Origin: Candidatus Eisenbacteria bacterium
Lineage (GTDB): Bacteria; Eisenbacteria; RBG-16-71-46; SZUA-252
NCBI GenBank assembly: GCA_035712245.1
Contig: DASTBC010000219.1
Span: 1 to 34,360, forward strand
Length of the DNA: 34,360 nt
Direction of reading: 5' to 3'
Shown here: positions 8,549-10,834 of the stretch, piece by piece
How positions within the stretch are numbered: the stretch's first letter is position 1
Layout of the letters: each line of letters begins with the position of its first letter
The notes under the pieces: generated by a model
The model's database searches: none
What the model saw: the letters and a program-made list of their open reading frames with translations, nothing else
What the model was told of the DNA's origin: nothing
Made by a program: the position numbers and the translations under genes

Positions 8549-9160
8549 TCAGAACCGGACGCGGAGCGCGACGGCGAGGCCGGGATCCGGTCGGGAAGAA
8601 GCGGCGCGCGCCAGGCCGGGACCGGGAAGCGGGCCCAGGTCGGCGCTGAAGTCGCGCAGGTGCGCGTCGACGTAGGCGTCCGCCATCTGGAGGAGGTGGA
8701 CCACGGTGGCCCACCAGATGTAGTTGATCTTCAAGTTGTAGTGCTTCTCCTTGTCGTCTTGAGCCTGCGCGATCTCGTCCGCGTTGTTGGGATCCTTCGG
8801 ATCGAGCTCGCCCAAGCGGTCGACCGCATCGTTCTCCTTCGACAGCTCGTCCAGTGCCTTGTACACCAGAAAGCCTTCGCCCGCCACGACCACGGCGGCC
8901 TTGAGGGGCCTGCCATTGTACATCTGACCCCATCCCGGGAGGACGGTGGAGCGGAGCATCACGCGGAACGGCGGCGCGCGGCGCTTCGTCGTGTCGGGAG
9001 GGGCGGACCGGGATTCAGGGGGCGGGGTGACCGGCACCGGGGCGATGGCGCCGGCGGTGTCGGGGGGCGTGGTGCTGGGTTTGGGGTCGTCGTCGTCGGG
9101 GGCGGAGGGGGGTTGGGCGGCGGCGAGTCCAAACAGGCAGGACAGTGACGCCGCGAGCAT
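8549..9160 (-). CDS. DUF5683 domain-containing exported protein
   Basis: The 203-residue protein has a hydrophobic N-terminus ([14 protein letters not shown]) that looks like a short signal peptide, then a Pro/Asp/Thr-rich linker to about residue 60. The DUF5683 core follows, with [18 protein letters not shown] at residues 71-88 and a second hydrophobic stretch with [27 protein letters not shown]5683 proteins are common in FCB bacteria; function is unknown. The open frame extends upstream to 9313, but that part is the tRNA-Sec gene plus its terminator, so I start at the first ATG after them (9160). No clear Shine-Dalgarno is seen, and the signal peptide lacks the usual basic residue, so a non-ATG start slightly upstream is possible. 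Confidence 0.75.
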
Positions 9161-9197
9161 CAGTGCGATGACAGCCGCTTGCGCGGCGCGGGAGTAT

Positions 9198-9227
9198 GAA
9201 AAGGTGCGGGGCGCTGCGGCGCCCCGC
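9198..9227 (-). terminator. Intrinsic terminator after tRNA-Sec
   Basis: A perfect 9-bp stem (GCGGGGCGC / GCGCCCCGC) with a 4-nt loop at 9206-9227, followed on the minus strand by ACCTTTTC. It begins 6 bp after the tRNA-Sec CCA end. Confidence 0.8.
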
Positions 9228-9233
9228 GACGTA

Positions 9234-9331
9234 TGGCGGGAACGTGTGGGAATCGAACCCACCTCGGACGTTGGAAACGCCCGACAGAAGGATTTGAAGT
9301 CCTCGGAGTCCACCAGAACCCATCCGTCCCC
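9234..9331 (-). tRNA. selC: tRNA-Sec (anticodon UCA)
   Basis: The 98-nt gene folds as a selenocysteine tRNA: the anticodon loop CTTCAAA (anticodon TCA) sits on a GAGGA/TCCTT stem, with a 6-bp D stem (GGGTTC/GGACTC) closed by a 4-nt loop. The long variable arm has a 7-bp stem (TCGGGCG/CGTCCGA), and the T arm is GTGGG-TTCGATT-CCCAC. The acceptor GGGGACGG pairs with ACGTTCCC, the innermost (eighth) position being a G-A mismatch; discriminator G and an encoded CCA follow. It starts 8 bp after the selD stop codon and is probably co-transcribed with selD. Confidence 0.93.
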
Positions 9332-9339
9332 GCGAACCG

Positions 9340-10395
9340 CTATGCCGACACCTCGAGCGGGCGCGAACCCCGCGGGAGCACCTCGCCGATCACGGCGGCC
9401 TTCACGCGCGCGCGAGAGAGCCTCGCCATCAGATCCTTCACGCGGGGCGGGCCCGCCACGATCAGGAGCCCTCCCGACGTCTGAGGATCGACCAGCGCCG
9501 CCCGGAGCGTCGCGGGCACCGTCTCATCGTAGCGCGTCTGGGCCTCGAGGTACGACGCGTTCGCCTGGAGCCCGCCCGGCGCGACGCCCTGGCCGGCGAA
9601 CTCGAGCACGCCGGGAAGCACGGGCACCGCGCGGCTCCACACCCGGATCGTGACGCGGCTCGCCCGGGCGATGTTGAGGGCGTGCCCCAGGAGCCCGAAC
9701 CCGGTCACGTCCGTCGCCGCGCTCGCGCGCGCCGCCTGCATCGCCTCGGCCGCGGCCCGGTTCAGCGTGGCCATCTGGCGCGTGATCGTGCGCAGCGAGG
9801 CGTCGTCGAGGAGCCTCCGCTTGAGGGCGGTCGCCAGGATGCCGGTGCCCAGGGGCTTCGTCAGCACGAGCAGATCTCCCTTCCGCGCGCCGGCGTTCGA
9901 GATCACGCGCTTCGGATGCACGTACCCCGTCACGGCGAATCCGAACTTGATCTCGCGGTCCCGGATCGAGTGGCCGCCCAGGAGCGCCACGTCCGCGCGG
10001 CGGAGCGTCTCCGCGCCTCCGCGCATCATCTCGCGCAGGATCGTGAGATCCCCTCCTTCGGGGAAGCCCACGATCGAGAGCGCCGAGACGGGCGTTCCGC
10101 CCATGGCGTAGACGTCGCTCACGGAGTTGGCGGCCGCGATTCGCCCGTACTCGTAGGGGTCGTTCACGACCGGCGTGATGAAGTCGACCGTCTGCACGAG
10201 CGCGAGACCGGGCGCGACCCGGTACACCCCCGCGTCGTCCCAGGTGTCGGGGCCGACGAGGACGTTCCGGTTCCGCTTGGGGGCGGGTAGTCCGCCGAGC
10301 ACGTGGCTGAGGTCCTCCGGACCCAGCTTCGCCGCTCAGCCCGCGCAGGCGACCTGCTCGGTCAGCCGGTAGATGTCCCGTCTCGTGTGGCTCAT
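9340..10395 (-). CDS. selD: Selenide, water dikinase SelD, a selenoprotein with in-frame UGA (Sec20)
   Basis: SelD makes selenophosphate from selenide and ATP, the Se donor for selenocysteine. The C-terminal 320 residues are plain SelD: DTWDDAGVY, VDFITPVVNDPYEYGRIAAANSVSDVYAMGG, GGHSI, TDVTGFGLLGH and DPQTSGGLL. Reading upstream through a TGA (10336-10338) restores the missing N-terminus, from ATG 10395: MSHTRRDIYRL, TEQVACAG-Sec-AAKLGPEDLSHVL. The TGA falls exactly where SelD has its active-site Cys or Sec (residue 20 here), with the conserved GxAAK context. Full length is 351 residues, normal for the family. A hairpin follows the UGA and tRNA-Sec is next door, so readthrough as Sec is strongly supported. 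A conventional caller would start at GTG 10302 and lose the active site. Upstream neighbour ridA ends 34 bp away. Confidence 0.93.
10306..10327 (-). promoter_or_regulatory. Candidate bacterial SECIS hairpin in selD
   Basis: Starting 8 nt after the in-frame UGA, the mRNA can fold as GCUG-GGUCC, loop GGA, GGACC-U-CAGC: nine base pairs with one bulged U on the 3' side. Bacterial SECIS elements sit in the coding sequence directly after the UGA and bind SelB through a G/U-containing apical loop. Position and size fit; the exact loop differs from the E. coli fdhF type, so the call is moderate. Confidence 0.6.
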
Positions 10396-10429: not shown

Positions 10430-10834
10430 TCAGGGGAGGAACGCCCACACCTCGATTTCGACGCGCGCGCCCGCGGGGAGATCCCGGGCCGCGATCGTGG
10501 AGCGCGCGGGGCGTGGCTCGGTGAAGCGGCTGGCGTAGACCTCGTTCATGGCCTTGAAGTCGGCCATGTCGACGAGGAACACGGTGGTCTTGACGACGTT
10601 CGCCAGGGTCGCGCCTCCCTCGGCGAGGATCGCTTCGAGATTCCGGATGGTCTGCTCGGTCTGCTCGGCCACGCCGCCAGGGACGAGCGCGCCCTTCGAG
10701 GGATCGGTGCCGGTCTGCCCCGACGTGACGATCCAGCGCCCCTGGAGCGTCCCGGTCCTCGCCTGGACGTAGGGGCCGATCGCGGCGGGCGCCCGGTCGG
10801 TGTGCAGGACCGCTCGGTCCGTCCCCTGGCTCAC
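10430..10834 (-). CDS. ridA: RidA family reactive intermediate deaminase
   Basis: This 134-residue protein matches RidA (YjgF/YER057c/UK114), which hydrolyses reactive enamine/imine intermediates released by PLP enzymes. Family markers are TDRAPAAIGPYVQA, IVTSGQTGTDP, AEQTEQTIRNLEAILAEGGATL.NVVKTTVFL, and the C-terminal RSTIAARDLPAGARVEIEVWA, which holds the active-site Arg (R111) and the Glu region (E126/E128). The GTG start at 10834 overlaps the glmS stop (GTGA), pointing to translational coupling. It lies between glmS and selD in a run of co-directional genes. Confidence 0.93.
   Translation of the reverse strand: MSQGTDRAVLHTDRAPAAIGPYVQARTGTLQGRWIVTSGQTGTDPSKGALVPGGVAEQTEQTIRNLEAILAEGGATLANVVKTTVFLVDMADFKAMNEVYASRFTEPRPARSTIAARDLPAGARVEIEVWAFLP

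Follow-up and report, generated by a model that had tools for sequence, protein, structure and literature searches.

Selenophosphate synthetases that themselves contain selenocysteine (Sec) have been described as the Sec-containing SelD/SPS2 family (PMC13188914, PMC4561486) and represent the second largest family of prokaryotic selenoproteins (PMC13188914), so one more member of it is in itself an expected find. Conversions of SelD were earlier reported to run from Sec to Cys (PMC1794560), and a Cys-to-Sec case has been reported for Pasteurellales (PMC4561486). For the bacterial SECIS element (bSECIS) the published constraints are a loop of 3-9 nt, a stem of 4-16 bp, a G in the first two loop positions, a spacing of 16-37 nt from the UGA and a minimum free energy (MFE) not above -7.5 kcal/mol (PMC13188914). 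In the literature that we searched, Eisenbacteria were not found named together with selenocysteine or selenium.

From its sequence we are nearly certain that the window (the whole analysed stretch of 34,360 nucleotides) carries a functional gene for a Sec-type selenophosphate synthetase of an Eisenbacteria-lineage bacterium, which forms a pair with selC and in which Sec insertion at UGA codon 20 is predicted to be directed by a SECIS element. The features of the locus, together with a second UGA-containing gene of the same genome, are collected in Table 1.

Table 1. Positions of the features discussed (positions refer to the window, except for the SelW-like gene)
Feature	Position	Strand	Details	Basis
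RidA/L-PSP family gene, upstream of selD	10430..10738	-		domain match; 3' part checked
selD, selenophosphate synthetase	9340..10395	-	351 residues, Sec at residue 20	TIGR00476 365 bits; SelD structure matches
Sec-UGA codon	10336..10338	-	catalytic residue 20; Lys23 three codons on (UxxK)	alignment with Cys of other SelDs and solved SelD chains
31 N-terminal codons outside the GTG-10302 ORF	10303..10395	-		mechanical ORF compared with translation with TGA=U
bacterial SECIS-type hairpin	10306..10327	-	9 bp; GGA in the apical loop (10316-10318), C 10309 bulged	structure, synonymous null, covariation, published model constraints
selC, tRNA-Sec	9234..9331	-	anticodon UCA, encoded CCA end	ARAGORN; Rfam RF01852 68.7 bits, E 1.6e-13
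SelW-like gene (PF10262)	G000:C198, L141 1486-1704	minus	in-frame UGA in CxxU motif	own hairpin

When positions 9300-10395 are translated with TGA read as U, the selD frame runs on the minus strand from ATG 10395 to TAG 9340, begins with MSHTRRDIYRLTEQVACAG-U-AAKLGPEDLSHVL... and contains a sole in-frame TGA, which lies in the context CAG-U-AAK. A mechanical ORF starts at GTG 10302 and reaches 9340 (320 aa), and exactly 31 residues of SelD are thereby lost. Reading through the UGA raises the TIGR00476 score from 336 to 365.3 bits (cut-off 125); the AIRS and AIRS_C domains are present, and homology to SelD continues in the same frame on either side of the codon. The best matches among solved structures are the SelD chains 3u0o (244.6 bits) and 2yye (226.5 bits), both of which have Cys opposite U20 and Lys opposite K23, and at every fetched locus examined the TGA site was aligned with the Cys of other SelDs. 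On sequence grounds the fold of the protein is beyond doubt. Most of the SelD matches above the cut-off in the 118 genomes searched likewise possess exactly one TGA. The earlier note had placed the start at ATG 10395 and the UGA at the active-site position of residue 20, and both points are confirmed; its 31 residues, the catalytic one among them, are those outside the mechanical ORF, and a standard caller may drop them. In most relatives the start column of selD holds a GTG that overlaps the stop of the RidA gene (GTGA), and here it holds an ATG after a short gap; inspection by eye identified no strong ribosome-binding site before this ATG.

The selC gene, which begins 8 bases past the selD stop, exceeds the gathering cut-off of its covariance model (47 bits), and ARAGORN reads its anticodon as tca. 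This neighbourhood of selC was absent from the earlier note. The Rfam alignment shows a slight deviation from the model in the acceptor stem, whose eighth and last pair is G-A. The mechanical ORF of a DUF5683 protein downstream of selC (8549-9313) begins at GTG 9313, and since this codon lies within the tRNA-Sec gene the ORF start is probably wrong. Coordinates place selD and selC side by side in no fewer than 26 of the 47 genomes of the class. A profile search of the source assembly, a draft of 312 contigs and 3.54 Mb that is 96.7% complete, found both selA (556 bits) and selB (359 bits), on whose presence elsewhere in the genome the earlier note had made its Sec reading depend, and the SelB protein carries the SelB-specific beta-barrel and winged-helix domains.

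Other selenoproteins were searched for family by family (formate dehydrogenase alpha, AhpC/TSA and SelW). In the window's genome (G000) a SelW-like sequence, MDIRIKYCNE-U-SYKPRATSLAAELKQHLGV..., has an in-frame UGA followed by a hairpin whose three-base loop starts with G, and of the seven further family genomes searched, five have the UGA as well (G001, G002, G003, G004, G005); standard annotation has likely missed or shortened this gene. As a second UGA gene it gives independent support to the decoding of UGA as Sec, and together with selA, selB and selC it upholds the earlier suggestion that the organism does so. Formate dehydrogenase alpha is the commonest bacterial selenoprotein; in the nine genomes it gave nothing above the cut-off, and what appeared were partial distant matches without internal stops. 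The AhpC/TSA search revealed no TGA-containing member in the window's genome. A peroxiredoxin (AhpC/TSA) match with one internal TGA, a candidate selenoprotein, was seen at G001:C10:28847-29176, in a genome of the same genus whose SelD is of the Cys type. The read-through frames seen near selA and selB either ended at genuine stops or arose by chance on the wrong strand.

The nine-pair hairpin that the earlier note had drawn after the UGA is confirmed, with one bulged C, and it falls within all four published bSECIS constraints: a 3-nt loop on an upper stem of 5 bp, a G in the first two loop positions, a spacing of 17 nt between UGA and loop (10335 down to 10319), and an MFE of -13.9 kcal/mol for the 28-nt piece. 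Five of the pairs lie above the bulge and a G-U, and four complete the stem. Against a synonymous null, in which the peptide was fixed and codons were drawn according to the codon usage of the window, all six core pairs occurred in 0.7% of recodings and all nine pairs in 0.2%; the local MFE compares with -5.5 +/- 2.3 kcal/mol in the null, where 0.13% of recodings were as low. The whole 51-nt fold is ordinary, as 63% of synonymous recodings fold equally well, and the signal thus belongs to the local hairpin. In 59 Sec-type sequences drawn from numerous families, the six core pairs had a covariation score of 0.191 vs 0.120 +/- 0.015 in shuffled alignments, above every shuffle and every slid control, with 16 cells showing compensatory changes and 79% of cells paired at the true register vs at most 55% when it was slid. 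Relatedness of sequences inflates covariation scores, and for this reason the slid control and the comparison with Cys forms are given weight as well. Judged from these data the hairpin is a real bacterial SECIS-type element, and its binding by SelB is predicted.

A related-locus scan returned nine loci, the closest of which (68% identity) is that of Candidatus Eisenbacteria bacterium SZUA-252, a family-level relative of the window's lineage, Candidatus Eisenbacteria. In the nine family genomes codon 20 of SelD is UGA in five (G000, G002, G004, G005, G008) and TGC in three (G001, G003, G006), and the hairpin is present in every TGA form and lost in the TGC forms. The ninth genome, G007, contains selA and selB and is missing both selD and selC; given that these two adjoin elsewhere, a single assembly gap is the likely cause. 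Across the class the Cys rows are nested inside Sec rows on the maximum-likelihood tree, with at least four changes, a direction that agrees with PMC1794560. One row (L116) was dropped from the comparison, where the Cys codon picked by the automatic call was a neighbour of the UGA and lay outside the Sec column. Cys forms keep two to four of the six core pairs (G001, G003 and G006 of the family; G021, G023, G038, G041 and G046 of family f8), and Sec forms of the class mostly four to six, the exceptions being G011 (two) and G012 (one), which have no hairpin in this register and whose hairpin, if any, lies in another one. The excess of core pairs in Sec over Cys forms has a p of about 1e-7, as calculated from related sequences that are not independent. 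The Cys-SelD genomes checked retain tRNA-Sec, selA and selB, the selB match of G038 being partial and below the cut-off. Taken together, it would be logical to suggest that SelD of this class probably made at least four separate transitions from Sec to Cys, with selA, selB and selC retained to serve other selenoproteins (SelW, for example), and that the hairpin of the Cys forms was eroded, partly by synonymous changes under an unchanged peptide.

Some further genomes deserve mention in their own right. G034, another member of the class (f8), possesses SelB and a SelA that is broken into two frames, and neither SelD nor tRNA-Sec was found there above the cut-off, which means either that the Sec trait is being lost or that the assembly has gaps. 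Several genomes of the class and outside it (loci L019, L020, L023, L025 and similar) have Cys-type SelD within an open frame of 740-890 aa, probably a fusion of SelD to another domain, and in G017, G024 and G091 such a long frame stands alongside a Sec-type SelD.

The in-frame UGA could be explained in other ways. If it were a true stop or a pseudogenising mutation, a shorter SelD would be made from GTG 10302, where a mechanical ORF does exist; such a protein, however, would have neither Lys23 nor the catalytic residue, other families and phyla conserve this same UGA, and the remainder of the frame is undamaged and adjoins selC. Moreover, the GTG 10302 column is an ordinary codon in relatives (GCT in G004, GTT in G008, ATT in G001, also GTC) and not a conserved start; the earlier note had looked to relatives on this very point, and it is the upstream frame and start column that they keep. 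We consider a shortened or decayed SelD extremely unlikely. A sequencing error in a Cys codon (TGC or TGT) would need only one base to turn TGC into TGA, and TGC indeed occurs in three of the other eight genomes of the family, but TGA stands at the same codon in the independent family assemblies G002, G004, G005 and G008, and the family hairpin accompanies exactly the TGA forms, which leaves to an error a practically negligible chance. Reassignment of UGA throughout the genome to a common amino acid, Trp or Gly for example, would equally account for a UGA read as sense in selD; it is next to impossible in our view, as most of the other genes identified in the window terminate in TGA, which speaks for local recoding and not for an altered genetic code, and as a tRNA-Sec with the UCA anticodon, selA and selB are all present.

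It may also be argued that the hairpin merely results from the protein motif LGPEDL and plays no part in recoding. The hairpin does overlap the conserved coding motif LGPxDL, which partly dictates the stem, so a part of its conservation is a protein constraint, and the synonymous nulls and the Cys forms with the same peptide served as controls for it. Four Cys forms possess the peptide KLGPGDL common to Sec forms but spell it with stem-breaking synonymous codons, and form three or four of the six core pairs where the Sec forms make four to six, with all six in 11 of 19 (this count alone gives a Fisher p of 0.09 at small n). All 19 Sec forms with KLGP[GE]DL use CCG and GAC, as the stem requires, and GGT, the Gly codon least used here (13 of 443), occurs in 16 of them. 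With these codon choices, a synonymous-null P of 0.007 and the covariation of the core pairs, a by-product appears very unlikely, and Sec insertion guided by the hairpin remains the reading that we prefer.

By analogy with established bacterial Sec biology, on which the steps of SelB binding, actual Sec insertion and SelD catalysis are modelled here, we propose that in the selD mRNA UGA codon 20 would be followed, 17 nt on, by the loop of the SECIS hairpin, to which SelB with GTP and Sec-tRNA-Sec would bind, and that Sec would be put in at the UGA in place of RF2 termination. The selC tRNA would be charged by SerRS and converted by SelA with selenophosphate from SelD, which in turn would make selenophosphate for SelA by means of Sec20 and Lys23. 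In this way SelD may sustain the synthesis of at least two selenoproteins, itself and the SelW-like protein.

Thus the complete set of genes required to decode UGA as Sec is present in an uncultured lineage, and standard ORF rules cut the catalytic residue off its SelD, as they would likewise cut the SelW-like protein. The most useful by-product of this analysis is that repeated Sec-to-Cys switches among close relatives provide a usable comparative set for SECIS decay; if the suggested history is true, the class would constitute a natural experiment on what happens to a SECIS after loss of Sec in one gene with the machinery retained.

Compared with the known systems, the SelD described here shares with Sec-containing SelD/SPS2 (TIGR00476, UxxK) full-length homology, the N-terminal catalytic Sec, the Lys three residues on and a hairpin right after the UGA; its anatomy is ordinary, and we see no feature that distinguishes it. 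Its selC resembles tRNA-Sec of RF01852 in the UCA anticodon, the long variable arm and a score above the gathering cut-off, and differs in the G-A last acceptor pair and in its place directly behind selD. With the bSECIS consensus model the hairpin has in common a 3-nt loop starting with GG, a 5 + 4 bp stem, the 17-nt spacing and a stable fold, unlike the model it has a bulged C on the 3' side. The Cys-type SelDs of close relatives belong to the same protein family and to an orthologous selD-selC pair, and unlike the gene of the window they have a Cys codon in place of the UGA and no hairpin.
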